NCBI RefSeq assembly: GCF_000338295.1
Contig: NZ_ANMO01000097.1
Coordinates: 1-64,000, forward strand
Reading direction: 5' to 3'
Length of the DNA stretch: 64,000 nucleotides
Origin: Rhodopirellula europaea 6C
GTDB taxonomy: Bacteria; Planctomycetota; Planctomycetia; Pirellulales; Pirellulaceae
Numbering within the stretch: the first letter of the stretch is position 1; every line of letters begins with the position of its first letter. Below the pieces are notes generated by a model, which was not told the origin of the DNA, searched no databases, and saw only the letters and a program-made list of their open reading frames with translations. Position numbers and translations under genes: made by a program. Below, piece by piece: positions 1,350-39,156 of the stretch.

Positions 1350-1403
1350 GGTAGGAAAAGAGTGGGAAAGGGACGCAGGGGCTCAGGGCCACAGGTTCAG
1401 GGT

Positions 1404-1735: not shown

Positions 1736-1740
1736 AGAGG

Positions 1741-2685
1741 CTAGACCGAACGGACTTCGCCGGATTGGACTCGTTGTCGATAGTCGGCGACGGTTTGGGT
1801 GAGGCCATCGTCCAGGCTGATGGTCGGTTGCCAACCGGTGGACCGGATTCGGCTGATGTCGGTGCATTTGACGGGGGTCCCGTCTGGTTTGCTTGCGTCT
1901 TGGGCGATTTGTCCTTCGAAGCCCGTCGCGTCGGCAATCTTCTTCGCAAGGTCGGCGATTGTGAGGTCGACTCCCGTTCCGACGTTGACCCAGTTCGGAG
2001 GGTTATCGAGTTGGAGCAGGTGTTCCACGGCGGCGGCCAAGTCATCGACGTGCAGGAATTCACGTCTTGGTTTTCCACTGCCCCAAACGGTGACTGAGTT
2101 GGCGTTCTCTTTCGCAGCCGCGTCGAAGCGGCGAATGAGGCCTGGAATCACGTGTGAGTTGTCGGGGTGGTAGTTGTCGCCTGGGCCATAAAGGTTTGTC
2201 GGCATCGCACTATGGAAGATTGCGCCATGCTGTTGTCGGTAGTACTGGCAAAGCTTTAGCCCCATGATTTTTGCCAGGGCATATCCCTCGTTGGTTTCTT
2301 CCAACGGGCTGGTCAGCAAAGCGTCTTCTTGGATCGGCTGAGGTGCCATCCGCGGGTAGATACAGGTGCTACCTAAAAACAGAAACCGTGAGACACCTGT
2401 TTGAAACGCTGCGTGGATGGCGTTGGCCGCCATCATGGTGTTGTCGTAGGCAAAATCTGCGGGGTAGGTCGCGTTGGCGTGGATCCCGCCGACCTTGGCT
2501 GCCGCAAAGACAACAGTGTCGGGGCGTTCCGATTCGAAGAACTCGTTGACAGCGGCTTGGTTGCAAAGATCCAGTTCGGTCCGAGTCCGAGTGACGATTT
2601 GGAGATCATCGCGGTCGGCAAATCGGCGAAGGATGGCCGATCCGACCATGCCTCGGTGTCCAGCAACGAAGATCTTCTGGGGCAT
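1741..2685 (-). CDS. fcl: GDP-L-fucose synthase
   Basis: This bifunctional epimerase/reductase converts GDP-4-keto-6-deoxy-mannose to GDP-L-fucose using NADPH. The 314-residue length is typical. It has the N-terminal nucleotide-binding motif [12 protein letters not shown], the family signature [17 protein letters not shown] and the catalytic YALAK (YxxxK) followed by a conserved [13 protein letters not shown] stretch. [11 protein letters not shown] and [14 protein letters not shown] match the substrate-binding half. It lies upstream of gmd on the same strand, and together they form the complete two-step route from GDP-mannose, probably feeding cell-surface glycan synthesis. The ATG is preceded by a pyrimidine-rich leader similar to that of gmd. 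Confidence 0.96.
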
Positions 2686-18385: not shown

Positions 18386-18446
18386 GCCGTGCATGGGGGC
18401 GATCACCGAGTTTTGGTGAATGATACGCTTGGGAGCGATGAGGGCG

Positions 18447-18816
18447 GATGAATTTGGCCGTTGGCCAAAGCGTCCGGGTGGTGCGTTGCAAGACCAGGGG
18501 CGTTGCCCGCTGGCTATGTTGAGTTTGGCCTTTGGCCAATGCGGTTGACTGGCCAACGGCCAGTTTCATCGAAGCCAGGGGCAACGCCCCTGGTACTCGG
18601 ACCGACATCGAACGGTTTGGCCAACGGCCAAGATCAACCGGGCCGCCTCGCATGCGATGTCAGACGCCACAATTGCCTCTCGGAACACCCCGGCGTCTTG
18701 ATCGTCTAAGCTGAATGTCGGTTGTCGGCCACTCTGGCCAACGGCCAGTTTCAACGAAGCCAGGGGCATCGCCCCTGGGACTCGAACCAACGTCGAAGGG
18801 TTTGGCCAACGGCCAA
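18447..18816. repeat. REP-like palindromic units left of the transposase
   Basis: There are three units. Unit 1 (18447-18539) is in one orientation and units 2 (18549-18631) and 3 (18734-18816) are in the other. Each has three hairpins built on TGGCCAACGGCCA, CCAGGGGC...GCCCCTGG and TTTGGCCAACGGCCAA. Unit 1 is identical over 93 bases to the unit at 19302-19394. Such palindromes flanking a small HUH transposase are what REP/RAYT systems show. No gene is seen in 18386-18844. Confidence 0.88.
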
Positions 18817-18844
18817 ATTCAACCGAACGGGGAGACGACATCCA

Positions 18845-19297
18845 ATGCCACAGTCATTGTCTCAACTCTATGTTCACTTGATCTTCAGCACCAAAGACCG
18901 GTTCCCGTTCTTAAAAGACGACATCCGAGACCGCGTTCACGCCTACCTGGCATCTGTTCTACGCGAAATGGGGGCGCCGTTCGTGGTCGTGGGCGGCGTC
19001 GACGATCATGTTCACGTTCTATTTGATATGGGCCGGATTCATCCAGCAAAAGATTTCGTTGAAAAAGTCAAACGTGAGACGTCCAAGTTTGTGAAGACGC
19101 TACGTCCCAATCTGGACAAATTTTATTGGCAGCGCGGATACGGGATCTTCTCCGTTTCTCCGACGCATCGTGAGAGCGTCGTTGAATACATCGAGAACCA
19201 GCAATCGCATCACCGAGCAACAACGTTCCAAGAGGAGTACCGCGACTTCCTCAAACGATATGGGATCGCGTTTGATGAGCGATATGTTTGGGAGTGA
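18845..19297 (+). CDS. IS200-like / REP-associated tyrosine (HUH) transposase
   Basis: This 150-residue single-strand DNA transposase belongs to the Y1 family. It opens with the usual SLSQLYVHLIFSTKDRFPFL and carries the HUH metal motif in DHVHVLFDM. Further motifs are FWQRGYG-like YWQRGYGIFSVSP and the nucleophile tyrosine in VVEYIENQQSHH. The C-terminus GIAFDERYVWE is also typical. It appears intact with a clean ATG at 18845. Palindromic repeat units lie on both sides, so it probably recognises and moves or spreads these repeats. Whether it is a domesticated RAYT or a mobile IS200-type element cannot be settled from one copy. I see no tnpB-like partner. Confidence 0.93.
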   Translation: MPQSLSQLYVHLIFSTKDRFPFLKDDIRDRVHAYLASVLREMGAPFVVVGGVDDHVHVLFDMGRIHPAKDFVEKVKRETSKFVKTLRPNLDKFYWQRGYGIFSVSPTHRESVVEYIENQQSHHRATTFQEEYRDFLKRYGIAFDERYVWE

Positions 19298-19301
19298 TGA
19301 G

Positions 19302-19500
19302 GATGAATTTGGCCGTTGGCCAAAGCGTCCGGGTGGTGCGTTGCAAGACCAGGGGCGTTGCCCGCTGGCTATGTTGAGTTTGGCCTTTGGCCAAGGATGA
19401 CAGGCCGACATGAAAGACTGGCCAACGGCCAGATTCATCGAAGCCAAGGGCATCGCCCCTGGAGCTCGAATCAATGTCGAACGGTTTGGCCAACGGCCAA
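19302..19500. repeat. REP-like palindromic units right of the transposase
   Basis: Unit 4 (19302-19394) starts four bases after the transposase stop codon and is identical over 93 bases to unit 1 at 18447-18539. Unit 5 (19419-19500) is in the opposite orientation and matches units 2 and 3. The arrangement around the transposase is: one forward unit and two reverse units, the gene, then one forward and one reverse unit. Confidence 0.88.
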
Positions 19501-19564
19501 AATCAACCGGACAACGGAGACGCACAATGCCCCGGTCATTGCCGAGAAGGACGCTCAGTTTCGA

Positions 19565-19818: not shown

Positions 19819-20754
19819 CTACTTGATCCGTGGCAAGACGGTGTCGAGTGTTTTGCGGAGGGCGGCGCCGCTGGCTCGGAGGCCTTGGACTTCCTTGGGC
19901 CAGAGGTCGATCTCGAGTTGATCTACGACTCCGGTGCGGCCAACCACGGTGGGGACGCTGAGTGCCACATCGTGGATGCCGTAGCAACCCGATTGCACGC
20001 TGCTGACGGGCAGCAAGCACTTGCGGTCGAGGATCACGGCGTCGATCACATCGCGAATCGCGATGCCGACGGCGAAGCCCGCTCCGCCCTTGCGTTTGAT
20101 GACTTCTGCACCACTGCCACGAGTCCGGGTGAACAACTGATTCGCGAGAGCTGGGGTCCAGCCTGGGAATTTTTCGAGTGGCAAGCTGCCGATCGCTGCA
20201 CTGCTCCAGATGGGAACCATCGTGTCGCCGTGTTCGCCCAAGATCAACGCTTTCGTTTGCGTTGGTGGTGCCTTGAGTTCTTCTGCAATCAATGAACAGA
20301 ATCGGATGGTGTCGAGCTGCGTTCCCAATCCGATGACTTGCTTGGTTGGCAATCCAAGCATGCCTGCGGCGACGTACGTCAGGATGTCGACGGGGTTGCT
20401 GACGACCAGCACGATCGCGGATTGCTTCGGCCCGGCGGCCTTCACGTCGCGAAGGATTTGGACGAACAGGTCGGTGTTGCGGTTGATCAAGTCCAAACGT
20501 GACTCGTCCGGTTTGCGACGCAGACCCGCGGTGATGCAGATGATGTCGCTGTCAGGAATGTGCTCGTAACCACCACCCACAATCGTTTGATCCGCGGTGC
20601 TTGGCGAACCGTGTTGCAAATCCAACGCGTGACCCACGGCGGTTTCAACGTTGACGTCGAGCAACGCGATTTCGCGAGCCAAGCCGCCGCACTGCAACGC
20701 GTAAGCGGCACAAGATCCGACGAGGCCGCCGGCACCAATGATGGAAACTTTCAT
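19819..20754 (-). CDS. L-lactate/malate dehydrogenase family enzyme of the microcompartment locus
   Basis: This is an NAD-dependent 2-hydroxyacid dehydrogenase of the LDH/MDH superfamily, 311 residues. It shows the Rossmann motif IIGAGGLVGSCAAYAL, the NAD-selective aspartate in LLDVN, NPVDILTYV, and the catalytic histidine in LGEHGDTMVP. The substrate loop reads TAGLRRKPDESR. R80 sits where lactate dehydrogenases have glutamine and malate dehydrogenases have arginine, so malate is as likely as lactate. It is the last gene of the microcompartment operon, after the aldolase. In planctomycete microcompartments such an enzyme has been proposed to handle the lactate made from lactaldehyde. No cargo tail is visible. 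Confidence 0.88.
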   Translation of the reverse strand: MKVSIIGAGGLVGSCAAYALQCGGLAREIALLDVNVETAVGHALDLQHGSPSTADQTIVGGGYEHIPDSDIICITAGLRRKPDESRLDLINRNTDLFVQILRDVKAAGPKQSAIVLVVSNPVDILTYVAAGMLGLPTKQVIGLGTQLDTIRFCSLIAEELKAPPTQTKALILGEHGDTMVPIWSSAAIGSLPLEKFPGWTPALANQLFTRTRGSGAEVIKRKGGAGFAVGIAIRDVIDAVILDRKCLLPVSSVQSGCYGIHDVALSVPTVVGRTGVVDQLEIDLWPKEVQGLRASGAALRKTLDTVLPRIK

Positions 20755-20797
20755 GGGATCAGTTGAGTTGGATGTGGGGGGATGGTTTGTGTGGTGT

Positions 20798-20854
20798 TAG
20801 CGGAGCGGCGCGAGCCGCCCGGTGCGGTACCGGAGGGCTCGCGCCCTACCGCTA
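20798..20854. repeat. Palindromic intergenic repeat, copy 2
   Basis: This is the second copy of the element at 8001-8060, running from TAGCGGAGCGGCGCGAGCCG to GGGCTCGCGCCCTACCGCTA. The two halves can pair. It lies between the aldolase and the dehydrogenase genes, where it could act as an RNA-stabilising or processing hairpin in the operon transcript. Confidence 0.75.
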
Positions 20855-20891
20855 GGAATCCAAATTCTGGCGAATCCGGCTACCTCGTGAG

Positions 20892-21755
20892 CTAGCTCGA
20901 CGCTTTCATCTGACGCATGACTTCGTTGGTGATCAGCTTGACGAGCTGCTCTTCGTCCACACCAGCAGGTGCAGCCGATGCCGAACCGGATGTCTTGATC
21001 GGTGGTGGTGGAGCGAATGCACGACGCTCGACGCCCGAGTCCTTCCATGATTCGCGGAAGATGTCGTTGGCGCAGATGTCGCAATCCTCGTACTCAGAAG
21101 TATTCCGTGGGTCTTTGAATCCCCATTTGTCCTTCAGTTCCAGCAATTCACGCGACTTGGTTTCGTCCAAGTACGACACGTTGCCCAATTGTTTGGCGAG
21201 CAACAACATTCGGCAGTAAGAGTCGAGGATCTCGGTCCACCAGTAAGCTCGTTCCACCGATTCACCGTACGAAACGGTGCCGTGGTTGGCCAAAATCATG
21301 ACGTTCGTTTTTTCAACGAAAGGAATGATCGTGTCAGCGAAGGCTTGTCCGCCAGGTGTTTCGTACTTGGTGATTGGCACGTCGCCGAGGAAGACTTCGA
21401 CCTCGGGCAAGATGCACTGTGGAATGGGCTCGCGAGCGATCGCGAACGCGGTCGCGTGCGGTGGGTGGCAGTGAACGACGGACTTGATGTCAGCACGTTG
21501 CTTGTAGATTTCCAAGTGCAACAACGCTTCGCTGCTGCGTTTCTTGCGACCAGCAATTTGCTTGCCGGTCATGTCGATCATCGAGATGTCGTCCGGCGTC
21601 AGATAGCCTTTGCAGTGCATCGTCGGTGTGCAGAGGACTTCGTTTTCGCTGACGCGGACGGTGATGTTGCCGTCGTTGGCCGCCGCGAATTGACGGTTGT
21701 AGATGCGGCGACCGATGTCGCACATGTCTTGTTTGATCTTATGGATGTTTTGCAT
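20892..21755 (-). CDS. Class II aldolase (fuculose/rhamnulose-phosphate aldolase-like) with C-terminal cargo helix
   Basis: It probably cleaves L-fuculose-1-phosphate or L-rhamnulose-1-phosphate to dihydroxyacetone phosphate and L-lactaldehyde, which would be the entry step of the microcompartment pathway. The aldolase/adducin fold spans about residues 1-230, with AANDGNITVRV, SVVHCHPPHATAFAI (zinc-binding HxxH region), PEVEVFLGDVPI and the third histidine in LANHGTVSYG. After a linker rich in proline and alanine, the last ~20 residues (EEQLVKLITNEVMRQMK) form an amphipathic helix typical of encapsulation peptides. A cysteine pair, CDICANDIF, lies before the linker. It is 86 bases downstream of a pentamer shell gene. 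Confidence 0.92.
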   Translation of the reverse strand: MQNIHKIKQDMCDIGRRIYNRQFAAANDGNITVRVSENEVLCTPTMHCKGYLTPDDISMIDMTGKQIAGRKKRSSEALLHLEIYKQRADIKSVVHCHPPHATAFAIAREPIPQCILPEVEVFLGDVPITKYETPGGQAFADTIIPFVEKTNVMILANHGTVSYGESVERAYWWTEILDSYCRMLLLAKQLGNVSYLDETKSRELLELKDKWGFKDPRNTSEYEDCDICANDIFRESWKDSGVERRAFAPPPPIKTSGSASAAPAGVDEEQLVKLITNEVMRQMKASS

Positions 21756-21841
21756 GACAAGTGGTCCAAGTCAGGAAAGGGAGGTCGAGAGATGGGAGAT
21801 GAATCGGAACGGGGTGGGCGTTCCGAATTGAGTTTTGTTGA

Positions 21842-22144
21842 TCACGAGGTTTGCACCTCGCAGTGGTCCAGGATGGCGACGATGGAAGCGTCGGTTGGTT
21901 TGACATCGGGGCGAAAGGGAGCGGCGGATTCAGGCCCTTCGGCCAACGCGACCCAGTCCCCCTGTCCACTGCCAACCAAATCCCACGCGATGATGGTGTC
22001 ACCACCAATCGGTTTCGCGTCGTCTTGGTTGACCTGGATTTGGTCCGCGGACTCCACGACTTCGACGCAGCGAAGTTTGTAGCCCTGCATGGACGGATGC
22101 ATTCGCGAAAGCGTCACGGTTCCTATCACACGAGCGATCTTCAT
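21842..22144 (-). CDS. BMC-P (EutN/CcmL) pentameric shell protein 1
   Basis: This 100-residue protein forms pentamers that cap the vertices of the microcompartment shell. It begins MKIARVIGTVTLSRMHPSMQ and contains YKLRCVEVV, IIAWDLVGSGQGDWVALAEG and the C-terminal SIVAILDHCEV, all standard for the family. The ATG at 22144 overlaps the stop of the preceding gene (ATGA), indicating translational coupling with the unassigned cargo-like protein. It is one of three BMC-P genes in this operon. Confidence 0.95.
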   Translation of the reverse strand: MKIARVIGTVTLSRMHPSMQGYKLRCVEVVESADQIQVNQDDAKPIGGDTIIAWDLVGSGQGDWVALAEGPESAAPFRPDVKPTDASIVAILDHCEVQTS

Positions 22145-22815
22145 CGAGATGTCTCCTGTGACGTGGAAGCGGTTGGCTTTGGCAATTGAGCGATGGTGTT
22201 CGCCGCGTTGACGAGAGCGACCAGGTTGAATCGCTGCATGTCGAGCACGAACGTGTCGGCGTCCATTTCCGCTGCGAAGCGTGGAATGTCTTCGAGCCGA
22301 GTGATCAACACCGCTCGTGAACCCGATTGAATGCGACCGAACAAGGTCGCGGCAGGACGGTCGGTCACGATCACGGAGCGGTGAGCCCGTGGGCAATGAT
22401 CAACGCCGCGAAGCGAAAGCTGACGAGTCAGCGCGTCGCGAATGGATTTGGAGGATGTGTCGGTGTGCAGTTGGATGAAGCGTTTGCCGGAGTTGCTCGC
22501 CGGTTTGGTTGCAGCGGCGTGCGTGGCCTTCGATCCAGCCAGGGCGATTCCGCGTGATCGCATTTCGTCGCGAGCGGCGGGCGTCACGATGCCTCCGGAC
22601 ACCTGAACCTGGGTGACTCCCGCGGGGATGCCCTGAATGACGTCGACGCTGATGACTTTGTCGTTCAGGACGTGAACGGTTTGATCGTTCGGCACTGGTT
22701 TGGACGGCGAAACGCTGGTGTCGGTTTGGTCTCGCAACCGGCGCAATACTTGTTCAACGATCGACGCGATGTCGACGTTGTTGGGCGTTGCGGATTGGGT
22801 TGCGGGGGAGGTCAT
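22141..22815 (-). CDS. Microcompartment-associated protein of unknown function
   Basis: This 224-residue protein is not assigned. Residues about 14-30 (VDIASIVEQVLRRLRDQ) form an amphipathic helix of the kind that targets cargo to the shell, followed by a proline/serine linker. The next block (ISVDVIQGIPAGVTQVQVSG then GIVTPAARDEMRSRGIAL) resembles the TPAAR...GI segment seen in some microcompartment and cobalamin-related proteins. A C-terminal block (SRAVLITRLEDIPRFAAEMD) faintly recalls RpiB-like folds. That last resemblance is weak. It lies between two BMC-P genes and overlaps the downstream one. Cargo or assembly factor are both possible. Confidence 0.85.
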   Translation of the reverse strand: MTSPATQSATPNNVDIASIVEQVLRRLRDQTDTSVSPSKPVPNDQTVHVLNDKVISVDVIQGIPAGVTQVQVSGGIVTPAARDEMRSRGIALAGSKATHAAATKPASNSGKRFIQLHTDTSSKSIRDALTRQLSLRGVDHCPRAHRSVIVTDRPAATLFGRIQSGSRAVLITRLEDIPRFAAEMDADTFVLDMQRFNLVALVNAANTIAQLPKPTASTSQETSR

Positions 22816-22897
22816 TGGTTTGGATTGGTAGCCGGATTCGCCAGAATTCGGTTGTTGGGTTGGTCGTAGGAATTACAGGCTGGAAGCCTATGCCACT

Positions 22898-23185
22898 TCA
22901 CTTCTTCTTGGATTTCTTCTTCTTTGTCGGTTCGTCAATCAGTCCTTGGACGCTCCAGCGAGCGGGGCAGGTTTCGAAACCGGTCATCTCGCGGACGGGG
23001 CCGGTTTCGCTGGTTAGCATCACGCGGTCACCGACTCGGCACCCGAGTTCATCCAACACGAGCAAGGGGGCTCCGTCCGGTTTCTCGTTCACGCCGGTGG
23101 GTTGAACGAGAACGAGACGTTGGCCTTGCAATGATTCGTGTTTGACGGTCGCGCGGGTGTGACCGATGACGCGTGCGGGTTGCAT
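22898..23185 (-). CDS. BMC-P (EutN/CcmL) pentameric shell protein 2, lysine-rich tail
   Basis: This is a second vertex protein of 95 residues. The family pattern is clear in MQPARVIGHTRATVKHESLQ, GQRLVLVQPTGV, PLLVLDELGCRVGDRVMLTS and the final SVQGLIDEP. It ends in an unusual basic run, KKKKSKKK. The start codon ATG at 23185 lies two bases after the aldehyde dehydrogenase stop, so the two are probably co-translated. The basic tail could bind nucleic acid, RNA or an acidic partner on the shell surface, but that is speculation. Confidence 0.94.
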   Translation of the reverse strand: MQPARVIGHTRATVKHESLQGQRLVLVQPTGVNEKPDGAPLLVLDELGCRVGDRVMLTSETGPVREMTGFETCPARWSVQGLIDEPTKKKKSKKK

Positions 23186-23187
23186 GC

Positions 23188-24612
23188 TCAGACCACTCGC
23201 AATTCGTCGATCATGCTGCAGCGTCGTTCGCGGGTGAACGTGTCTGGTGTCGTGACGCCTTCGCCGGTTGGGCCTGCGATGGAGAACGACAGGTAGCCTT
23301 CGCCGCCCAGTCCCAACGATGCCATGCAAGGACCGTTTTTGACGTACAGGGTTGTGTCCAACTCCTTGCCCATCTTGGTCATGTTGTGAACGTTGCGCGA
23401 GTGAATGATCGCGGTGTGACGGAAGCCGTGTTCGTAGTGCTTGGCCATCGCGATGGCGTGGTCCACGTCACGTGCTCGGACGAACGGGATGAACGGCATC
23501 ATTTGTTCAACGCTGACGAACGGGTGATGTTCGTCGGTTTCGCCAAAGACCAACTCGCACGATTCGGGAACCTTCACACCAGCGGCGGCGGCCAGAACCG
23601 CGGCGTCTTTGCCGATGTAGTCTTTTGCTGCGGCGTCGTGGTTGTCATCACCGACTTGAGTGATCGCGACCGAAGTCAGCTTTGCGATTTGGGCTTGGTC
23701 AAGTTGGACGGCTCCCGCACGTCGCATGGCGGCCATCATGTCATCGAAGACCGAGTCGACGACGAAGACTTCTTTTTCCGCGATGCACAACAGGTTGTTG
23801 TCGTATGCACCGCCTTGGATGATGCAGCGAGCCGCGTTGTCGAGGTCGGCGGTTTCGTCGACGACAACGGGCGGGTTGCCTGGGCCAGCAACAATGGCTC
23901 GTTTGCCACTGTTGAGTGCTGCACGTCCCACGGCGGGACCGCCGGTGACACAGATCAATGCGACGTCGCGGTGACCAAACAGTTCCGCAGCACTTTCGAG
24001 CGTTGGTTCAGCGATCACGCAGATCAAGTTGTCGATGCCGACTTCGCGAGCGATTTCTTCGTTGAAGCGACGGACACCTTCGACGGCAACCAAACGACCC
24101 GATGGGTGAGGGTTGACGACGACGGCGTTTCCGCCGGCGATCATGCTGACGGCGTTCCCGGTGATGGTTGGCAAGCTGTGCGTGACGGGGGTGATCGCCG
24201 CGATGACGCCAAACGGGGCTCGTTCGATGATCGCGAGACCGTGGTCGCCGGAGAAGGCTTTGGTTTGCAGGAACTCGGTGCCGGGCGACAGTTCGCCGAG
24301 GGCTCGCAGTTTTTCGATTTTGTGTTCGGGCCGACCGATACCGGTTTCCCGCATTTCCATCAGGCCGAGTTCTTCGCAGTTCTCAATGCTGATCTTGCGA
24401 ATGATATCGATCACGCGTTTGCGATCTTCCATAGGACGTTCGCGAAGTTGTTCGAACGCACGACGAGCTGCGGTGACCGCATCGGAAGCGTTGCCGAAGA
24501 TGCCGTGGCTGCCTTCGAAGGCGTTCGCCGAATCCGGCATGCTGGGCATCGGTCCGACTTCCGCGAGCACTTGTGCGACCACGCTGCGAATGGTGTTTTC
24601 GTCGAGTTGCAT
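23188..24612 (-). CDS. CoA-acylating aldehyde dehydrogenase of the microcompartment
   Basis: This enzyme oxidises an aldehyde, here probably lactaldehyde, to its acyl-CoA with NAD. The 474-residue protein is PduP/EutE-like. The N-terminal helix (LDENTIRSVVAQVLAEVG) is a cargo-targeting peptide. It is followed by a short proline/serine linker and the dehydrogenase fold, with GVIAAITPVTHSLPTI, the glycine motif VTGGPAVGRAA, AGPGNPPVVVDE and the catalytic C276 in DNNLLCIAEKEVFV. It sits between pentamer genes in the operon. PduL and the kinase encoded upstream would take its product onward to acyl phosphate and ATP. Confidence 0.95.
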   Translation of the reverse strand: MQLDENTIRSVVAQVLAEVGPMPSMPDSANAFEGSHGIFGNASDAVTAARRAFEQLRERPMEDRKRVIDIIRKISIENCEELGLMEMRETGIGRPEHKIEKLRALGELSPGTEFLQTKAFSGDHGLAIIERAPFGVIAAITPVTHSLPTITGNAVSMIAGGNAVVVNPHPSGRLVAVEGVRRFNEEIAREVGIDNLICVIAEPTLESAAELFGHRDVALICVTGGPAVGRAALNSGKRAIVAGPGNPPVVVDETADLDNAARCIIQGGAYDNNLLCIAEKEVFVVDSVFDDMMAAMRRAGAVQLDQAQIAKLTSVAITQVGDDNHDAAAKDYIGKDAAVLAAAAGVKVPESCELVFGETDEHHPFVSVEQMMPFIPFVRARDVDHAIAMAKHYEHGFRHTAIIHSRNVHNMTKMGKELDTTLYVKNGPCMASLGLGGEGYLSFSIAGPTGEGVTTPDTFTRERRCSMIDELRVV

Positions 24613-24667
24613 GATGAGGGATGAATGAGGGGGGATGGAGTGGAACAGGAAAGCGAAGGCACGTTGG

Positions 24668-24976
24668 TTAGGTGCTGGCTTTCACCTCTTTGGCATCCAC
24701 GTGAACGGAATCGACCAAGCCGATGACGACCGCGTCGATGGGAAGTGTTTTGGTTTCGGGGGTCAGTCGAGCGCTGCTGCCTTGGCACACCAGCACCAAC
24801 TCACCTTCACCAGCGCCCAACGTGTCGACCGCGATGAAAGTGCGTCCCGTTGAAGAAAGCTTTGCACGCGTTTTCTCATCGAGCCGGTAAGGCTCGACAA
24901 TCAACAGCTTGTGACCGGTCATGGATGCAACCTTTTGGGTGCAAACGACCGATCCGGTGACGCGGGCTAGAAACAT
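24668..24976 (-). CDS. BMC-P (EutN/CcmL) pentameric shell protein 3
   Basis: This third vertex protein of 102 residues begins MFLARVTGSVVCTQKVASMT and has HKLLIVEPYRLDE, FIAVDTLGAGEGELVLVCQG and DAVVIGLVDSVHV, matching the family closely. It lies between the kinase and the aldehyde dehydrogenase with gaps of about 55 bases on each side. Having three different pentamers suggests that they occupy different vertices or have different interaction partners. Confidence 0.95.
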   Translation of the reverse strand: MFLARVTGSVVCTQKVASMTGHKLLIVEPYRLDEKTRAKLSSTGRTFIAVDTLGAGEGELVLVCQGSSARLTPETKTLPIDAVVIGLVDSVHVDAKEVKAST

Positions 24977-25033
24977 GGGAGTGGTGGGTTGAGGTGATGT
25001 GTTTGGGGAGATCGACGCCAGGTGGAACCTGGC

Positions 25034-26269
25034 CTACTGGGCGGCGAGAGCACGAAGGCTTCGCTTGGCCACGATCCATTCTTCGTTGGTGGGCAAAACC
25101 AGAATCTGAGTTTTGCTGGACTCGGTGTGCAGGCTTCCTTCACCACGCATGCCGTCATTCTTGGAGGCATCCAGTTCGATGCCAAAACCTTCCAGGCCTG
25201 AACAAACGGCGGCCCGGACCACGTCGCTGTTTTCACCAATTCCTCCGGTGAACACGATCGCATCCAAGCGACCCAGAGCGACCATCATTCCGCCGAGGTG
25301 TCGGCGAATCTCTTCGGTGTAAACACCGAGCGCCAATTTCGCGTCGGCATTGCCTTCGGAGGCGGCCGACTCGATGTCTCGCAAATCAGCCATGCCGCCG
25401 GAGAGACCTTTCAGTCCACCTTGGCTGGCCAGTGTTTGCAGGACTTCTTCCAGCGATTGGCTGGTTCGTTGCATGATCAACGGGATCGCGAAAGCGTCGA
25501 AATCGCCCACGCGGTTGTTTTGCGGGACGCCGGTTTGAGGTGTCATGCCCATCGTGGTCATGATGCTCTTGCCAGAATCAATCGCGGTCAGCGAACTGCT
25601 TCCGCCCAAGTGACACGAGATGATCTTGGCGTCGTCGCGACCCAAGACTTCCGCGGCACGTTCGGCAATGAAGCGGTGGCTGGAACCATGGAATCCCCAC
25701 TTTTGAATTTGCATCTCACGCGTCCATTCCGCAGGAATCGCGTAGGTGCGACGCTCCGGCGAAATCGTGTCGTGAAATTCGGTTTCAAACGCGGCGACCA
25801 ACGGTAGCTCCGGAAAACGTTGACGTAACAGTTTCATCGCAGCGATGTACGGTGGGTTGTGCGCCGGGGCGGCGGCACTCATTTCGTCCATCGCTTCAAG
25901 CACTTCGTCATCGACGACGAAGGTGCCACTTTTGCGTCCACCGTGAACGGCTTTGAAACCGATCGCGGCAACTTCATTGGCCTCTTTCAAACATCCGTTT
26001 TCAGGATGGGTCAGTTGGTCCAAGCAGGCTTGAACAGCAACGCCATGATCCGGCACGGGCATCTGCGTTTCTTCGCGAAACGTTTCGCCTTGATGCGATC
26101 GCGTCACAATCACTTCGCATTGACTGATGGGTTCGCCAATGCGATCGACGGCCCCGCGAGCGAGCACGCGAGAGTCGGGGGAGGCATTCGCAGATTCAAA
26201 GTCACCGGACATGTCCAGCAGCTTGTACTTGAAACTGGTCGAGCCCAGATTGGCAACGAGGATCAACAT
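25034..26269 (-). CDS. ackA: Acetate/propionate kinase family enzyme of the microcompartment locus
   Basis: It would transfer phosphate from an acyl phosphate to ADP, making ATP. The 411-residue protein has the N-terminal phosphate loop VANLGSTSFKY, a GFKAVHGG motif, AAPAHNPPYI, FETEFHDTIS, KWGFHGSSH, the ISCHLGGSSSL stretch and VFTGGIGEN. Two residues known to be essential in classical acetate kinases differ: the arginine of HRVVHGG is K106 and the aspartate of FDTAFH is E162. The NRVGDFD arginine and the GIGEN glutamate are kept. These changes suggest a specialised substrate such as lactyl phosphate. It lies between shell genes. Confidence 0.92.
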   Translation of the reverse strand: MLILVANLGSTSFKYKLLDMSGDFESANASPDSRVLARGAVDRIGEPISQCEVIVTRSHQGETFREETQMPVPDHGVAVQACLDQLTHPENGCLKEANEVAAIGFKAVHGGRKSGTFVVDDEVLEAMDEMSAAAPAHNPPYIAAMKLLRQRFPELPLVAAFETEFHDTISPERRTYAIPAEWTREMQIQKWGFHGSSHRFIAERAAEVLGRDDAKIISCHLGGSSSLTAIDSGKSIMTTMGMTPQTGVPQNNRVGDFDAFAIPLIMQRTSQSLEEVLQTLASQGGLKGLSGGMADLRDIESAASEGNADAKLALGVYTEEIRRHLGGMMVALGRLDAIVFTGGIGENSDVVRAAVCSGLEGFGIELDASKNDGMRGEGSLHTESSKTQILVLPTNEEWIVAKRSLRALAAQ

Positions 26270-26353
26270 CGAATCACGGTCCTTGTGAAAGAGGTTTCAC
26301 GCAGCGTGTGTGAACCAGGTTGTGAACGTCGCAACCGGATCACACGGCGGCGA

Positions 26354-26623
26354 TCAATTGAAGTAAGCGTTCATCAAGCCTTCGGCTGGACGAGCGATCA
26401 CGTGGCTGCTTACCAATTCGCCAACTTGAGCGGCTGCGGCGGCACCGGCTTCGACGGCTGCGCGGACGCTTCCGACGTCACCGCTGACGACGGTCGTGAC
26501 CATGCCACCACCGAGGTCGACGCGTTTGACAACAGCGACGTTGGCGGCTTTGGCCATGGCGTCGGTGGCTTCGACCAACGGCAAGAGGCCCTTCGTTTCA
26601 ATCAAACCAATGGCATCGTTCAT
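26354..26623 (-). CDS. BMC-H hexameric shell protein 1
   Basis: This 89-residue protein tiles the flat facets of the microcompartment. It is a single BMC domain beginning MNDAIGLIETKGLLPLVEAT, with DAMAKAANVAVVKRV, VTTVVSGDVGSVRAAVEAGA and HVIARPAEGL. The pore loop region appears as RVDLGGGMV. It is a close paralogue of the next BMC-H gene, and both have an A/T-rich leader with AATCTCAA or TATCTCAA just before the ATG. No tandem-domain BMC-T gene is present, so the facets depend on these two hexamers. Confidence 0.96.
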   Translation of the reverse strand: MNDAIGLIETKGLLPLVEATDAMAKAANVAVVKRVDLGGGMVTTVVSGDVGSVRAAVEAGAAAAAQVGELVSSHVIARPAEGLMNAYFN

Positions 26624-26693
26624 TTGAGATTCTCTAAAAGTTGTTTTGGTGAGGTGGGAGACAATCGGGGTGACAGACGCTGCTGTCGCTCGA

Positions 26694-26990
26694 TCACTTT
26701 TTGCTGGACGAAGGCAGCTTCAGGATCTTTTCCAAGTCGCCGTGTGGGCGTGGGATCACTTGAACGCTGACGACTTCGCCGACGCGACCAGCGGCTGCGG
26801 CACCCGCATCGGTGGCTGCTTTGACAGCGGCGACATCGCCGGTGACGAACACGGTTGCCAAGCCAGCACCAATCTTGTCCCAACCAAGGAACTGAACGTT
26901 GGCGGCTTTCATCATTGCGTCGGTTGCCTCCACTGCTGAAACGAAACCTTTGGTTTCGATCATGCCGAGGGCTTCACTGATTTTGGCCAT
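26694..26990 (-). CDS. BMC-H hexameric shell protein 2
   Basis: This second facet protein has 98 residues: [20 protein letters not shown], then [38 protein letters not shown] and [15 protein letters not shown]. It has a short serine/lysine tail (LPSSSKK) absent from the other hexamer. It is the first shell gene after PduL in the operon. High expression is likely, since shell hexamers are needed in large numbers. The gap upstream contains a small TTGGCAGTTTGCCAA hairpin. Confidence 0.96.
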
Positions 26991-27038
26991 CTTTTGAGAT
27001 ACCTAAAAAGGAAAGGGGAAAACGTGAGAGAGTGAGAG

Positions 27039-27053
27039 TTGGCAGTTTGCCAA
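27039..27053 (-). other. Small hairpin between pduL and the first BMC-H gene
   Basis: TTGGCAGTTTGCCAA forms a 6-bp stem with a 3-base loop in the 116-base gap between PduL and the first hexamer gene. It could mark an mRNA processing or stabilising point that lets shell genes be expressed above the regulator and PduL. There is no T-run, so it is not a classical terminator. Confidence 0.4.
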
Positions 27054-27106
27054 CGGTTTCAATCACCGGACCGAATTGGCACCGGCGAACGGTTTGAGTG
27101 AGTCGA

Positions 27107-27832
27107 TCAGTGCTGGCAAGCACAGCCGGACTTTTTCAGTTCAACGCTGGTAGCTGCATCCAGGTTGCAAGCGTTGCCTTCGTCCGTGTCGATATGAACT
27201 TCCAACTTGGCGGCTTTGTCGGCACGAACCAAAACGTCTTCAAACGAAACGCTGCAGTCAGGACTGCGAACGGAAAGTTGCATCATGTCGCCATCGGAAA
27301 CACCGTAGTACGCCGCGTCGGCGAAGTTCATGTGCACGTGGCGAGCGGCGCGGATAACGCCTTGTTCGAGTTGAACGCTGCCGGCGGGGCCGACCAACAC
27401 GCACCCGGGCGTGCCGTCGATTTTGCCGCTGTGGCGAACCGGTGCGTTGATGCCCAGTGAGATCGAATCGGTCAGTGCCAGTTCGACTTGGCTGGCTCCA
27501 CGCGTTGGTCCGAGCACGCGAACGCTGGGGAGCATTCGTTTGCGAGGTCCGACGACCATCACGGTTTGCTTGGCCGCGTAAAAGCCATCTTGGTAGAGGT
27601 CTTTGTCAGGTTCCAAAACGCTGCCGCGACCGAACAAGATTTCAACATGCTCGTCAGTCAGGTGGCAGTGGCGAGCGGAAATGCTGACACGCAAGTTCGG
27701 TTTGCCATCGACCCAACCCAGAGGTTGTTGTCCGGCGGAAGCGACCGACGGGGCTGGCGGTGCCATACCCGATTGACGGATCGCGTTGCGAACGAGGGAT
27801 TCAATGCGTGAACGATCGACAGCCAAGCTCAT
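27107..27832 (-). CDS. pduL: PduL-type phosphate acyltransferase
   Basis: It exchanges CoA for phosphate on the acyl group, regenerating CoA inside the compartment. The 241-residue protein starts at ATG 27832, overlapping the DeoR stop (ATGA). Residues about 5-22 (VDRSRIESLVRNAIRQSG) form a cargo-targeting helix, followed by a proline/alanine linker. The two-part PduL fold shows VSISARHCHLTDEHVEILFG and VIRAARHVHMNFADAAYYGV, with the histidines that bind zinc, and GPRKRMLPSVRVLGPTR. The C-terminus ends in a cysteine-containing KKSGCACQH. As second gene of the operon it links the aldehyde dehydrogenase to the kinase. Confidence 0.95.
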   Translation of the reverse strand: MSLAVDRSRIESLVRNAIRQSGMAPPAPSVASAGQQPLGWVDGKPNLRVSISARHCHLTDEHVEILFGRGSVLEPDKDLYQDGFYAAKQTVMVVGPRKRMLPSVRVLGPTRGASQVELALTDSISLGINAPVRHSGKIDGTPGCVLVGPAGSVQLEQGVIRAARHVHMNFADAAYYGVSDGDMMQLSVRSPDCSVSFEDVLVRADKAAKLEVHIDTDEGNACNLDAATSVELKKSGCACQH

Positions 27833-28734
27833 GAGAGATTCGCGTTGTTCAAGGAATGGGTGGGGGAGGAGTTCGATGGGGACGCGGCCGGAGCCGGCGT
27901 CGATGATTCGTGCGGCGACTGGGCCTGCGGCGACTGGGCCTGCGGTGACTGGGCCTGCGATGACTGAGTCAACGGGGACTGGGCCAAGCGTAGTTGGACA
28001 CCGGCGGATTCCAGCCACGCTTTCGCGTCAGAATCCAGCCCGTCGTCCGTGACAACCGTGTCAATCTGATTCAACTCGCAAATTCGGCTCAAACTGGTTT
28101 TTCCGAACTTGCTGTGGTCGGCCAACACGATGCCTCGTTCGGCCGAAGCGAGCATCGCCTTTTCGCTTTCCACCAGCATCATGTCGCTGTTGAAAAATCC
28201 GCGAGGCGAGACGCCGGCGACCGACAAGAACGCGGTGGTGACGTGGATGTTTGCCAATTGCGAATCGGCCAGAGGGCCGATCGTGACCGAGGTGCGACCG
28301 CGAACGCAGCCGCCGATCATGACCAAGTCGATCGAATCGCTGGTGGAAAGCAAATGCGCGACCGGCAGCGAATTCGTCACGACTTGCAACGGCCGATGGA
28401 TGATCAGGCGAGCCAATTCGTAAACCGTGCTGCCGCCATCCAGCAAAATGGTGTCGTGGTCGGCGATCAATTCCGATGCGGCTCGGCCGATGGATTGTTT
28501 CGCGGCCCAGAAATCGTCGTTTCGGGATTCGAACACGCTGATCGTGTCGGAATCGCCCGTCCAGTAGACGCCGCCGTGGGTGCGACGCGCCAAACCGGCT
28601 TCTTCCAGCATTTCCAAATCGCGACGGATCGTCGATTCGCTGACCGACAATTGCGACGCCAGTTCGCCCAAAGCCGCGAATCCGCGGTCTTTGACCAAAT
28701 CACGCAATCGATCTCGACGTTCGTCGGTGGTCAC
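27829..28734 (-). CDS. DeoR-family regulator of the microcompartment operon
   Basis: This is a sugar-responsive repressor, first gene of the microcompartment operon. The N-terminal helix-turn-helix (GELASQLSVSESTIRRDLEM) and LEEAGLARRTHGGVYW are classic DeoR. The effector domain contains DGGSTVYELARLI, VTNSLPVAHLL, MIGGCVRGRTSVTIGPLA and DHSKFGKTSLSRI. The effector is probably a phosphorylated deoxysugar intermediate. The C-terminus carries a glutamine/serine/proline tail of repeated AQSPQ units encoded by a 15-base tandem repeat at about 27908-27965. The stop overlaps the PduL start. An 18-base palindrome upstream is the likely operator, pointing to autoregulation. Confidence 0.94.
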   Translation of the reverse strand: MTTDERRDRLRDLVKDRGFAALGELASQLSVSESTIRRDLEMLEEAGLARRTHGGVYWTGDSDTISVFESRNDDFWAAKQSIGRAASELIADHDTILLDGGSTVYELARLIIHRPLQVVTNSLPVAHLLSTSDSIDLVMIGGCVRGRTSVTIGPLADSQLANIHVTTAFLSVAGVSPRGFFNSDMMLVESEKAMLASAERGIVLADHSKFGKTSLSRICELNQIDTVVTDDGLDSDAKAWLESAGVQLRLAQSPLTQSSQAQSPQAQSPQAQSPHESSTPAPAASPSNSSPTHSLNNANLS

Positions 28735-28920: not shown

Positions 28921-29514
28921 CTACGCGTTGGGCTGGGCGGCGATTTCGGGATTGTCAGTGATAGATTCCAACCACCCACTGGTCCGATCGAGCATCTCGA
29001 ACGCGTCGATCCCCACTGATTCCCAGATATAGATGGAAGTCTGGGTGGATAGGGTAGAGTTTGAGCCGTCTGGAGCTGTCGCCGCGATCGTGACGTTTGG
29101 AAGATCTCTTTCACGAAAGAGCTCCAAGGCGGTGAGCAATTGTTGCCGCGTTTCAGCCCATTGCTCCAAAACGTTTCGCTGGATCGCCGAGTCAATCGGC
29201 TGCCACACAAATTTGACTTTCTGCGTTCGATCACCGGCGGATCCATCTGGGTTGGTCGGCTCCGGACGCCGGAGCTCGCACAGCCTTCCACCCTCCGCTG
29301 CCAATTTTGAGCCATCCAGGTAGACTCGTCGCAGTTGATTGTCTGCGTTGAATTGGTAGACCCGGTCGGGGCCATCGTAGAAAGCCGGTCCACCGCCGGT
29401 GCGCCAGCCGACCACCCATTCTCGGCCGCTCGCCCGGTGCAGCAGCCGAGCTCGCTCGGGCAAATTGACGCCCTCCAACAGTAAATCTTCGCGGTCGTGA
29501 GTTTCGCGTGCCAT
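28921..29514 (-). CDS. Hypothetical protein
   Basis: This 197-residue protein is not recognised. It appears cytoplasmic, with no signal or membrane segment. It has a compact mixed composition, including RARLLHRASGREWVVGWRTG, FYDGPDRVYQFNADNQLRRV and WESVGIDAFEMLDRTSGWLE. The N-terminal half reads like a small beta-rich domain and the middle (QWAETRQQLLTALELFRERD) like a helix. It lies upstream of the DeoR gene on the same strand, but the promoter-operator region falls between them, so it is probably not part of the microcompartment operon. Codon use matches its neighbours. Confidence 0.7.
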   Translation of the reverse strand: MARETHDREDLLLEGVNLPERARLLHRASGREWVVGWRTGGGPAFYDGPDRVYQFNADNQLRRVYLDGSKLAAEGGRLCELRRPEPTNPDGSAGDRTQKVKFVWQPIDSAIQRNVLEQWAETRQQLLTALELFRERDLPNVTIAATAPDGSNSTLSTQTSIYIWESVGIDAFEMLDRTSGWLESITDNPEIAAQPNA

Positions 29515-34123: not shown

Positions 34124-37100
34124 CTACTTTTGATTGCTGAGAATGTAGTTCAGCAGCTCGAAGACCTCGTCCTCCGTGTACTGATCGAGCAAAGCCTTTG
34201 GCATCATCGAGGTCGATGTCTTGACCATCTGCTCAATCTCATCCTGCTCAATCACGGTGGGCTCTTTCGCTTCCGCATTGGCCATCAACTTCACGACGTC
34301 GTCGGTTTCTTCGACCAACAAACCCGAGAACGTTTGCCCGTCGGCGGTCAGAACCAAGTGCATTGCGTACTTGTCGTCGATGCGGTCAGACGGATGCAGG
34401 ATCTCCTTCAACACCTCACGCGAATCGCCTTTCCATTTGCTGACGACTTCGTCGAGTGCCGGACCGATCTGGCCGCCTTTGCCGGCGACTTGGTGGCAGC
34501 TCGCACAGGTGGCCTGTTCGAAGATCTTCTGCCCGATTTCCGCGGTTCGACCACGCAAACCCTCAGTCAGCTTGTCGCCTGCGAAATCGTCGATTGTCCA
34601 GGCTTGCACAAACGAACGATTGTTTCCGATCGGATCAGCGGGCTCGAATGGATCGGCGTTGTAGGCATCGAGGTCTTCGACGACGACCATCACGCCGTAC
34701 ATGCGGTACCAGTGTTGAGGGAATGTGCAAACGTAGGGATACTCACCGGGTTCGGTGGGAGCCGTGAACGTCAACGCTTCCTTCTCGTTGGAGGCAACCA
34801 AGTCGGTGCTATGCAACACCAGTTCGGAGTCAGGGACGTATTGCTTGCCCTGGAATCCACCGCGAGGTCCGGCTTGCAAACCAAGTTCGGCCACCTTTTT
34901 CAGTTCACCAGGGACGGTGATGACCAAGTTGTGCGGCATGCCGTCGTGGTTTTCCAAGACAACTTGCACGGGGCGTCCCGCTTCGACAGCGAAATAGGGC
35001 ACGTCGTAACGCATTTCTTCATCGACCGTTTTGATACGGACCAAACGCACCGTGATCTCACGCAGACGATCGCGAAATTGTTTGGCGGTCTTGGTCGGCA
35101 ATTTGGCGATGGCTCGGTCGGCGACTTGCATCGCGTCGATGAACGAGTCGCTGGTGCGGTTTCTCGCCTTGGTTCGCTCGGCAAAATTGACGAGATAACG
35201 AGCCAATTTCAGCGACGTTTCAGGCTGGTAGGCTTTCTTCGGAATCGCGAGCAGCGTGGCAATCCCGTCTTCGCGAAAACCTTCGCAGGCAAGGTTGCCG
35301 ACTCGTTCAAACGTGTCGTTCCAGTCGCCCGGGACAACAGCCAGCGTTCGAATGGCGGCGGCAACAACTTCTTTTTTGTCGCTGTTGGACATCAGGTCGA
35401 CGACTCGTTCACGTTGCGATTCACGATCCAGTCGATCGGGAAGCATCGCGACGCCAGTCAACCAATTGACCTTCGCCGCATCGGATCGCTTTGCTAGTTC
35501 GAACGATGCGACGTCATCACCGGCAACAATCAATCCAGCCAACGCAATCGGAGCGATGGCGGCATCGCCTTTTCGAGCGGCTGCGGTGAATCGGTCCTGC
35601 AACGATTCCAAGTTGCCAGCGGGAAGCTTCAGCAACATATTCGACAACCCGCGAGCGGCTCGCAAGTTGACGTCTCGTTTGGATTTGTCCTTCCAGTCCA
35701 AGTTCTCGATGACGCCGAGCAAGACATCGCCGGGGTCGGAGTCTTGCAGGGCCACCAAGGCGTCCAGGGCGGCGCGTCGGTCTTGGTCGCCAACTTCGCC
35801 TCGAGCCAAAATCGCGGCATGCAGCGGTTCGTATTTTGGATCTTTGGAATCTCGCGGGACAGCCAACAACGCTGGCGTCGACAGACGTTCGATTTGGTAC
35901 GAAACGATCTCTGGTGAAAGGTCAAAGAAGACCGGCAACGCGGCGTTGTACGGAGCAATCTTGCTGCCGTGGCCGTTGAACGTCGCACCGGGATCGGTCA
36001 ACAGGTGAACTTGGTCAACCGCATATCCGACCTGAGGTTGAATGTGACCGGCGTGAGCGTGGGCCGTCTGACTTTTCGCGTTTTTATCCTCCGGCAGATA
36101 CGGAGCACGACTGGCGATGACCTGTTCGAAACGCTGCATCGTTTCTTCGAGAGCGTAGTCGAGGTAGTGATCCATCGGCATCTCTTTGATACGCAATGCC
36201 GCTCGGATCAAACGATCTTGATCGTCCAACGCCCAGGGTTCGCCGAACGCGTGCGAAATGCCACGCAGAGCTTCCATGCGAACTCGCGGATGTTCATCGG
36301 TCACAAGTTCTTCGTAGCGCTGAGTCGTGTATTCAATTCCGGCCCAATAGGACAGCACGCGGGTGGCGGCACTGCGGGCTCGATGATCGTCGCTGGCCAG
36401 TAAGTCCGTCAGTAATTCTTCATGTACCATGTTGTGAGCTTGATGAAGCCAAAGCAGTTCCAGCAAATCATGGTCGTCGCCCTTGCTTTCTCTAAGTCGT
36501 TGCAATTTGGCTTGTGCACTCCATAGAACATCGTCAGTTGGTCGAGCATGCAGTTCTCGACGGACACGGTAAGCGTGTCGTTGGTTCTTGCGACCAACAT
36601 CCGAGCACAGTTGATCGATCAGGTCAGGCGTGCTGGTCTCGGCGATCACGGGCAACTTCACCAGCGGACGTTCTTTGTGAGTCAAACGCCAGATGCGGCC
36701 GTGGCTATGGTCGCGGCTTGGATCACGCAAGTTGTGTTGCAGGTGACCGATCAACGCGTTGTGCCAATCGATGATGTAGAGCGAGCCGTCGGGAGCGATT
36801 TCGATGTCGACGGGACGGAAGTTTCCATCGCCACCACCGACCAACATCGGTTCCTCGGTGCCTTCGTAGCCAGAGTCCTTTTCCACGACTTCGTGTCGAA
36901 GCACGGCACGGTCACCGATCACGTTCGTCACCAGGAAATCGCCTTGGACATCATCGGGGAAGTGCTCGCTGCTCAGGAAGCGACACCCAGCCAGCGGTCG
37001 AATTCGTTTTGGATAGAACGTTTGGTAGTCGACCAATCCATCGTCGTATCCTTGCTCTCCGGCAACGCGGCGATGTTGGGAACCGCCCGGGTGCTTGATC

Positions 37101-38863: not shown

Positions 38864-39156
38864 CGGTTGGGGATTCACAAGACAGGAGGTGGGATGATGG
38901 CAAGGCATGCGCGGTCGCCAGATGGCGAGCCAGCACGCAATTTACAACAGCCGCCTGAGCGACGTGTTTATCAATCAAGATTGTTACACGACTTCGATGA
39001 ATTCGTGTTGCGTGTCCCGAAGGATTGCTGGGCGATTTTGAGGATTTGACGCCGCGTTTTCAACGATCACCTCCGGATATCCGAAGGTGGCGGAATTCGT
39101 TCGCGAAGAGGAGTGAATTGCGTCGTGGTGAGGTGGTCAACGACGCGGTCGCGAGC

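Follow-up and report, generated by a model that had tools for sequence, protein, structure and literature searches.

What kind of organelle does the pvm operon of Rhodopirellula europaea 6C encode, which sugar would feed it, and what do its products PvmO and PvmL do there? The operon lies in the 64,000-nucleotide stretch of contig NZ_ANMO01000097.1 that was analysed (positions 1 to 64,000, hereafter the window). Its twelve genes run on the minus strand from 28734 to 19819 in the order pvmA-B-D-E-G-H-J-K-L-M-N-O (Table 1). A first-pass annotation had described a complete bacterial microcompartment (BMC) operon at 19819-28734, all on one strand, and this proved correct. The PduL, CoA-acylating aldehyde dehydrogenase, kinase, class II aldolase and DeoR regulator that it listed were each found in place by family matches, while the gene that we call pvmL is missing from its list. 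The 2-hydroxyacid dehydrogenase that it named is present as PvmO, but belongs to the L-lactate/malate family (PF00056/PF02866) and not to the D-2-hydroxyacid family. Its "several overlaps" come down to two, a 4-nt overlap (ATGA) of pvmA with pvmB and that of pvmL with pvmM, plus a 2-nt gap between pvmJ and pvmK. The functions attached here to the pvm letters other than pvmA are in part presumed.

The genome, which is 99.93% complete, was searched as a whole with the shell profiles PF00936 and PF03319. The two BMC-H and three BMC-P genes that the first-pass annotation had listed were found, all of them inside the operon, and these searches revealed neither a BMC-T gene nor any further shell gene. 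The class II aldolase (PF00596) that is the signature enzyme of the planctomycete and verrucomicrobial microcompartment (PVM) type is present in the locus, as are the core PduL and CoA-acylating aldehyde dehydrogenase. The PVM locus has been defined as also containing a DeoR-family regulator, an acetate-kinase gene and an Ldh_1 gene (PMC4207490), and the window locus has all three. Most pvm PduLs are described as having Tyr or Phe at the position of Gln77 of the Rhodopseudomonas palustris enzyme, rPduL (PMC4784909). This position, placed by alignment to 5cuo with His48 and His50 as anchors, is occupied by Phe in all 48 sequences compared (the window and 47 loci), and PvmB keeps the Zn ligands.

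The characterised cluster of Planctopirus (Planctomyces) limnophila is named pvmABDEGHIJKLMNO (PMC11958385). Matched at the level of this published name, its letters and order are those of the window except for pvmI, so that at this level the comparison of gene order with a known planctomycete locus, which the first-pass annotation had proposed, comes out in agreement. In P. limnophila, pvmI stands between pvmH and pvmJ, whereas the window has a 55-bp gap there with no gene inside, and pvmI is thus absent from the window. The two loci also differ between pvmA and pvmB, which do not overlap in P. limnophila but are separated by 46 bp that contain a predicted promoter (PMC11958385). A promoter scan gave 2 sites, while 2.4 are expected from shuffles, and supports no promoter. 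The PV-BMC loci of Verrucomicrobia (Puniceicoccaceae, Akkermansiaceae), as far as they are described, share the class II aldolase, aldehyde dehydrogenase, BMC-H and BMC-P with the window but, unlike it, are reported as a pair of adjoining loci in which shell genes occur in three copies (PMC8857213).

The gene families, their order, the confinement of the shell genes to the operon, the PduL Phe77, the match to the P. limnophila cluster and the rhamnose enzymes encoded elsewhere in the genome together make it highly probable that the operon encodes a PVM-type metabolosome. The assignment to this type had been made before, and it is supported on the features that sequence can test. A 2021 count already stood at 285 PVM loci (PMC8217296), and the operon itself is one further copy of a well-known organelle type.

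How well is the locus conserved? Relatives were collected by one genome scan with the aldehyde dehydrogenase, which reaches close relatives only and gave 62 distinct loci (L048 and L067 come from the same genome, on separate contigs). Sixty of these are planctomycete by name, and L040 and L062 are metagenome-assembled genomes named "bacterium". Every locus that shows at least two of the genes (60 of 62) carries them on a single strand in the order A-B-D-E-G-H-J-K-(L)-M-N-(O); L057 and L058 show only pvmJ among the operon genes. An extra aldehyde-dehydrogenase match in L043, with <50% identity, was excluded from this count. The eleven genes A, B, D, E, G, H, J, K, M, N and O are found together in 38 of the 62 loci, and many of the incomplete loci, though not all, are cut by contig ends. 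The PVM type is described as nearly confined to Planctomycetes and Verrucomicrobia. A plasmid tblastn search for verrucomicrobial PVM loci gave 440 records, all with <60% identity, and Verrucomicrobia do not appear among the ten commonest names (86 more names were returned).

Several observations count against the PVM assignment. The divergent metagenomic loci L055-L058 have room around pvmJ, yet few or no neighbouring genes were detected. A PvmO match is absent from L052, L053, L054, L056, L059 and L063 despite 4.0-7.6 kb of sequence past pvmN, and PvmL is absent from L042 and L047, so neither protein is universal. PvmN falls below every curated cut-off shown, the best being NF043034 with 135 against 250 bits. 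The N-terminus of PvmB and the C-terminal helix of PvmN resemble encapsulation peptides (EPs), with hydrophobic moments of 0.67 and 0.55, but the N-terminal extension of PvmJ, a candidate EP, reaches just 0.39 and is exceeded by ends not expected to be EPs, the C-ends of PvmD (0.59) and PvmO (0.52). The hydrophobic moment alone is therefore no discriminator of EPs here.

Gene content, gene order, conservation, key residues, the predicted fold of PvmL and the confinement of the shell genes are established in this analysis; all of the reaction, localisation and regulation steps of the following scheme we infer. In the cytosol, enzymes encoded outside the operon would isomerise the deoxysugar and phosphorylate it. 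PvmN, held in the lumen by its C-terminal targeting helix, would cleave the ketose 1-phosphate to dihydroxyacetone phosphate and L-lactaldehyde, and PvmJ would oxidise the latter to lactyl-CoA with formation of NADH. PvmB would convert lactyl-CoA to lactyl-phosphate, freeing CoA. PvmG, in which the family match covers residues 2-402 of 411 and leaves no N-terminal extension, would act outside the shell to give lactate and ATP. The shell would consist of PvmD and PvmE (BMC-H) with PvmH, PvmK and PvmM (BMC-P), and the DeoR-type PvmA would control the operon. The NADH made by PvmJ would be re-oxidised by PvmO in the reduction of oxaloacetate to malate, so that reducing power would leave as malate. 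Finally, PvmL would tie the EP-bearing enzymes to the shell through a module like helices H1/H2 of EutQ.

What is the substrate of PvmO? The pvmO gene is described as encoding lactate/malate dehydrogenase domains, and its product has been predicted to be an alcohol dehydrogenase that converts lactaldehyde to 1,2-propanediol (PMC4207490, PMC6620236). In this superfamily, residue 102 is known as the specificity position and is reported as Arg in all known malate dehydrogenases (MDHs) and Gln in canonical lactate dehydrogenases (LDHs) (PMC4109310). Alignment of the PvmO loop AGLRRKPDESRLDL to that of the Thermotoga maritima LDH, AGVPQKPGETRLQL, places an Arg at 102 (PvmO residue 80). Arg102 is present in the window protein and in 43 of 43 relatives, from 45 hits of which two were excluded as frames reaching a contig end (L017, L033). 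It is also present in the window protein and in all 29 loci obtained when 392 genomes were drawn from within the phylum. Thus, position 102 is Arg in 44/44 and 30/30 sequences, with the window counted in both, and the Gln of LDHs is not seen; the two sets may share species (phylum-draw genomes and L006-L067), so these counts are not independent. Ten of the 39 matches in the phylum draw other than PvmO's own lie outside the count, two of them with <43% identity. In 26 of the 29 phylum-draw loci the retrieved flank also contains a PvmN match in the same orientation, and none was found there for L104, L110 and L117.

The window PvmO holds the full set of MDH residues, Arg102, Arg109, Asp168, Arg171 and His195, as do 42 of the 43 relatives and all 29 phylum-draw loci. 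The exception, L045, is a broken frame of 177 aa in which 168 is Tyr and 195 falls in a gap; every sequence retains Arg109 and Arg171. An Arg at 102 is also found in Ccel_0137 (Arg81) of Clostridium cellulolyticum, an LDH-family protein that was judged the primary malate dehydrogenase of its host, although both paralogues there are said to catalyse both reactions (PMC3268733). PvmO differs from Ccel_0137 in having Arg at 101 as well and in its place in a BMC operon. The genome encodes two more Ldh_1 proteins, one (L090) with a canonical MDH loop and Pro at 101, and one (L092) in which the loop has a one-residue insert. Because L090 resembles canonical MDHs, PvmO need not be the housekeeping enzyme. 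Since Arg102 is invariant, we suggest that PvmO is a malate/oxaloacetate-type dehydrogenase that perhaps regenerates NAD+ with oxaloacetate, a reading from sequence that we consider evenly balanced. Among the publications that literature searches listed, not all of them read, we recognised none that states a malate dehydrogenase role for PvmO or in such organelles.

The scores of PvmO do not favour this assignment, however. PvmO reaches 270.6 bits with an LDH model and 264.7 with the MDH model PRK06223 (cut-off 283), values which are alike, and 212.3 bits with TIGR01763 (cut-off 351.85), so that no curated LDH or MDH cut-off is passed. No terminal extension is seen on PvmO, which leaves its location in the lumen a supposition, and since six loci lack it, not every PVM-type locus requires PvmO.

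What is the function of PvmL? Its gene matches no Pfam family above cut-off, and its orthologues sit between pvmK and pvmM. PvmL evolves rapidly, with identities from 96% down to 33% over 12 genomes of the same genus, whereas the aldehyde dehydrogenase is 76-85% identical across the 30 loci L006-L035, which are partly of other genera. An alignment of 41 sequences (A1: the window and 40 of the 51 frames between pvmK and pvmM) has only M1, T78 and P79 as invariant columns. The AlphaFold2 model, mostly confident (pLDDT 84.3, pTM 0.55), shows an EP-like helix at residues 16-31, a module at about 47-94 and an alpha/beta domain at about 112-209. By Foldseek the last domain resembles ribose-5-phosphate isomerase B (RpiB), with E 6.8e-5, probability 1.00 and a TM-score of 0.55 on the target length. 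Searched against PDB sequences, PvmL returned a single match, at chance level (E 0.57).

The module has the pattern V/LIT...TPxARD..RxRGI (LIT...TPxAR) and lies between pvmK and pvmM in 51 of the 53 loci that have both genes. In profile comparisons with hhalign it aligns with Escherichia coli EutQ from residue 2 (score 40.4) and with residues 16-50 of EutT (30.0), and the Ilyobacter BMC flavoprotein and PduM score 24.2 and 17.2. As a null, 65 other proteins reached at most 21.8 and 100 shuffles at most 17.7. The top two of these 65 proteins are PduD and EutE, whose N-termini (residues 2-26 and 2-24) match columns 13-37 of the PvmL profile, which supports an EP in PvmL at that place. When 15,359 open frames from 65 loci were searched with a hidden Markov model (HMM) of the module, EutQ was recovered with E 0.0012, the flavoprotein with E 0.013 and EutT weakly with E 0.7; EutT thus stands above the null in the profile comparison but not in the HMM search.

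These matches suggest a role. In Salmonella EutQ, helices H1/H2 are reported to bind the shell and H3/H4 the targeting peptides of cargo, and loss of either function separates shell and cargo (PMC12487888). PvmL from residue 52 aligns to EutQ 2-95, its module (about 52-94) falling on EutQ 2-45, the shell-binding H1/H2. As PvmL joins a helix like a targeting peptide to a module like EutQ H1/H2, we suggest that it may be a cargo-shell adaptor; judged from sequence resemblance, a predicted structure and analogy to EutQ, the proposal has about an even chance of being right. PvmL is not an EutQ, however, since it has no cupin domain with kinase activity; its C-terminal domain is RpiB-like and its EP-like helix stands before the module. 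The shell site of EutQ is formed with EutL, a BMC-T protein, and the genome searches revealed no BMC-T such as PduB or EutL, so that the PVM partner would have to differ. PduM, which helps to connect shell and cargo in Pdu compartments (PMC9132943), is, as PvmL is predicted to be, a small structural protein of the lumen with an EP-like N-terminus, and has been described as having no sequence relatives outside Pdu (PMC12108088). The C-terminal end of a PduM model matches the PvmL module weakly (TIGR04493, 8.7e-4, below cut-off). Homology of PvmL and PduM was nevertheless kept just as a weak possibility, as the single Kosakonia PduM scores below the null (17.2) and is missed by the module HMM, and common descent is not supported. 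The view that PvmL is an ordinary hypothetical protein was rejected, because alignment, predicted fold and module HMM concur. Among the publications that searches of the open literature listed, not all of them read, we recognised none that names a shared module of this kind or a function of PvmL.

Apart from PvmL, EutQ and the flavoprotein, the only match of the module HMM below 0.05 is a frame at L029:15536-15817 (E 0.012), outside the interval between pvmK and pvmM. In the fusobacterial BMC flavoprotein the module is C-terminal, behind an EP-like N-terminus (module-bearing EutQ/EutT/flavoprotein entries L130:9503-11004 and L131:9940-10647).

Which sugar would supply the lactaldehyde? The first-pass annotation had named fucose and rhamnose; this is supported in part, since the enzymes found point to rhamnose, while those expected for fucose have at best weak matches. 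The genome encodes an L-rhamnose isomerase, RhaA (703 bits, cut-off 572), and a protein whose best family is rhamnulokinase (TIGR02627), at 433.6 bits below the cut-off of 528. Glycerol kinase, xylulokinase and ribulokinase are the best families of the remaining three FGGY kinases, which all exceed a cut-off, and no kinase of the genome exceeds a curated cut-off for fuculokinase. Likewise, no genome protein matches an NCBIfam family of fucose isomerase. The sole fucose-isomerase-like protein (contig C154) barely passes PF02952 (30.7 against 29.3), misses PF07881 (26.1 against 28), has no NCBIfam match at all and is encoded next to an L-ribulokinase gene, and a PDB search with it gave nothing at E 0.001. 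The sulfatase and GDP-fucose genes that had been taken as signs of fucose use do exist near the operon but have no bearing on the organelle substrate. The sulfatase, about 10 kb off, carries no weight because it is one of 125 sulfatase matches in the genome, and the GDP-fucose genes, about 17 kb away, are of fucose synthesis and say nothing of degradation. On contig C192 (L087:4203-9494, L126, L127), RhaA is accompanied by two GH78 rhamnosidases, six sulfatase matches and a RhaS-like regulator. The genes adjoining RhaA (L087:4203-7028) encode a 430-aa tandem class II aldolase, in the second half of which Asp replaces the histidine of the ENHG motif of the first half (ENDG), and an NAD-type aldehyde dehydrogenase. 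Since RhaA, the rhamnulokinase and GH78 enzymes are present and the fucose enzymes are weak, L-rhamnose is the better-supported and most likely sugar for the organelle on sequence grounds, with L-fucose possibly used too.

These readings have rivals. In the published view of the redox balance, PvmO would reduce a second lactaldehyde to 1,2-propanediol and so restore NAD+ in the lumen. The products of P. limnophila are given as lactate and 1,2-propanediol (PMC12078418), and 1,2-propanediol, if it was measured in the founding study of 2014 (Erbilgin), would speak against a malate-type PvmO. This view is a serious one, but we think it somewhat improbable, as PvmO keeps a 2-hydroxyacid active site (Arg109, Asp168, Arg171, His195), and as Arg102 in MDHs pairs with a second carboxylate, which lactaldehyde does not have. 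Alternatively, the substrate might be another acidic compound of the pathway, with the Arg101-Arg102 pair as the mark of a clade. The pair is found in the window and in 72 of 72 relative entries (43 and 29), while L090 differs in having Pro at 101. The data point to no candidate for such a substrate, however, and Arg102 by itself gives malate specificity in the Bacillus LDH frame, where Gln102Arg converts the enzyme to an MDH, although so clean a switch may be exceptional (PMC4109310). We therefore regard another acidic substrate as quite unlikely.

The C-terminal domain of PvmL invites a different alternative to the adaptor, namely a catalytic sugar-phosphate isomerase of the lumen. The RpiB-like fold would agree with this, and RpiB enzymes are reported in the SPU-type BMCs (PMC8217296). 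The domain is absent, however, from seven short forms of PvmL (81-119 aa; L011, L013, L018, L037, L038, L044 and L062). The catalytic motif of RpiB consists of a Cys and a Gly-Thr-Gly loop. Neither a conserved Cys nor such a loop is seen in the printed rows of A1, and no column of the domain is invariant; we call the domain degenerate because its catalytic residues are not conserved, and an isomerase is very unlikely. A rival to rhamnose as the organelle substrate comes from contig C192. With its tandem aldolase and NAD-type aldehyde dehydrogenase beside RhaA, the rha cluster is an apparent non-BMC route through lactaldehyde, which weighs against rhamnose, as this sugar may bypass the organelle and leave the latter to serve L-fucose, or both sugars. 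There is one GH29 fucosidase in the genome, and PVM loci are reported in fucoidan degraders (PMC8857213). Against this stand the lack of a fuculokinase over curated cut-off and the weak isomerase-like protein beside L-ribulokinase. Furthermore, the pvmA/pvmB regulatory region of P. limnophila responds to rhamnose and has been made into a rhamnose-inducible reporter (PMC11958385). An organelle for fucose, with rhamnose left to the rha cluster, is thus doubtful, and L-rhamnose is preferred.

The malate-type PvmO and the PvmL adaptor can also be put together. Jointly, it would be proposed that PvmO exports reducing power as malate to respiration, so that half of the lactaldehyde is not lost as 1,2-propanediol, and that PvmL is the adaptor and carries a shell-anchoring module common to EutQ, EutT, the fusobacterial flavoprotein and perhaps PduM. 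That all of this holds at once is unlikely, and we offer the combination tentatively.

Table 1. Genes of the pvm operon and other features of the window, with the matches on which they are based.
Feature	Product	Position	Strand	Basis and remarks
pvmA	DeoR-family regulator	27829-28734	-	GTG start; PF00455 1.2e-48, PF08220 2.2e-15
pvmB	PduL phosphotransacylase, 241 aa	27107-27832	-	PF06130 9.3e-71; NCBIfam PRK15070 241.5 bits, cut-off 209; start set at 27832, upstream GTG at 28018 not chosen
pvmD	BMC-H shell protein	26694-26990	-	PF00936 3.6e-27
pvmE	BMC-H shell protein	26354-26623	-	PF00936 5.8e-24
pvmG	acetate/propionate-family kinase, predicted lactate kinase	25034-26269	-	PF00871 8e-104; TIGR00016 337.5 bits, cut-off 293.4
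pvmH	BMC-P vertex protein	24668-24976	-	PF03319 2.8e-29
pvmJ	CoA-acylating aldehyde dehydrogenase	23188-24612	-	NCBIfam PRK15398 633.8 bits, cut-off 403
pvmK	BMC-P vertex protein	22898-23185	-	PF03319 2.6e-21; start placed at 23185
pvmL	predicted cargo-shell adaptor, 224 aa	22141-22815	-	alignment A1, AlphaFold2, Foldseek, hhalign, module HMM
pvmM	BMC-P vertex protein	21842-22150	-	PF03319 9e-21; start overlaps pvmL end
pvmN	class II aldolase (signature enzyme), 287 aa	20892-21755	-	PF00596 8.5e-48, residues 9-185; FucA-type PDB relatives
pvmO	Ldh_1-family dehydrogenase	19819-20754	-	PF00056 1.9e-36, PF02866 5.6e-29
GDP-fucose genes	GDP-mannose dehydratase and GDP-fucose synthase	339-2685		about 17 kb from operon; first over, second below NCBIfam cut-off
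sulfatase	sulfatase	39157-41085		about 10 kb from operon

Some further features of the operon and its surroundings were seen. The C-terminal tail of PvmA is a low-complexity stretch of Ser, Pro and Gln (SPQAQSPQAQSP...), encoded at about 27829-27987 on the minus strand. Upstream of pvmA there is an open frame of 197 aa (28921-29514, minus strand) for which Pfam gave nothing at the E-values applied. A protein of 1594 aa (34124-38908, minus strand) combines GDSL lipase-like, DUF7133, HEAT, copper-binding and cytochrome c domains. The neighbour of the operon at its 3' end is a transposase gene of the IS200-like (Y1_Tnp) type (PF01797 2.5e-22, open frame 18722-19297), flanked by identical direct repeats of 94 nt at 18446 and 19301. 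The region 18446-19512 contains seven TTTGGCCNTTGGCCAAA palindromes, with up to 1 mismatch, against a mean of 0.00 in 100 shuffles. Transposase, palindromes and repeats form a unit like those of repetitive extragenic palindromes and their associated tyrosine transposases (REP/RAYT).

The operon extends a much-catalogued organelle type by one planctomycete. Should the malate reading of PvmO be true, the redox balance accepted for the organelle would have to be revised, and with it the energy yield on algal methyl pentoses would be affected; export of malate to respiration would suit an aerobic host. If the adaptor reading of PvmL is true, a gene of unknown function gains a role, and its module would give a general handle to find or design the anchoring of microcompartment cargo. 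Both readings can be tested in P. limnophila, which is open to genetic manipulation and has a pvm regulatory region that responds to rhamnose (PMC11958385). A module that is truly shared would mean that functionally unrelated microcompartments anchor their cargo through one common part.

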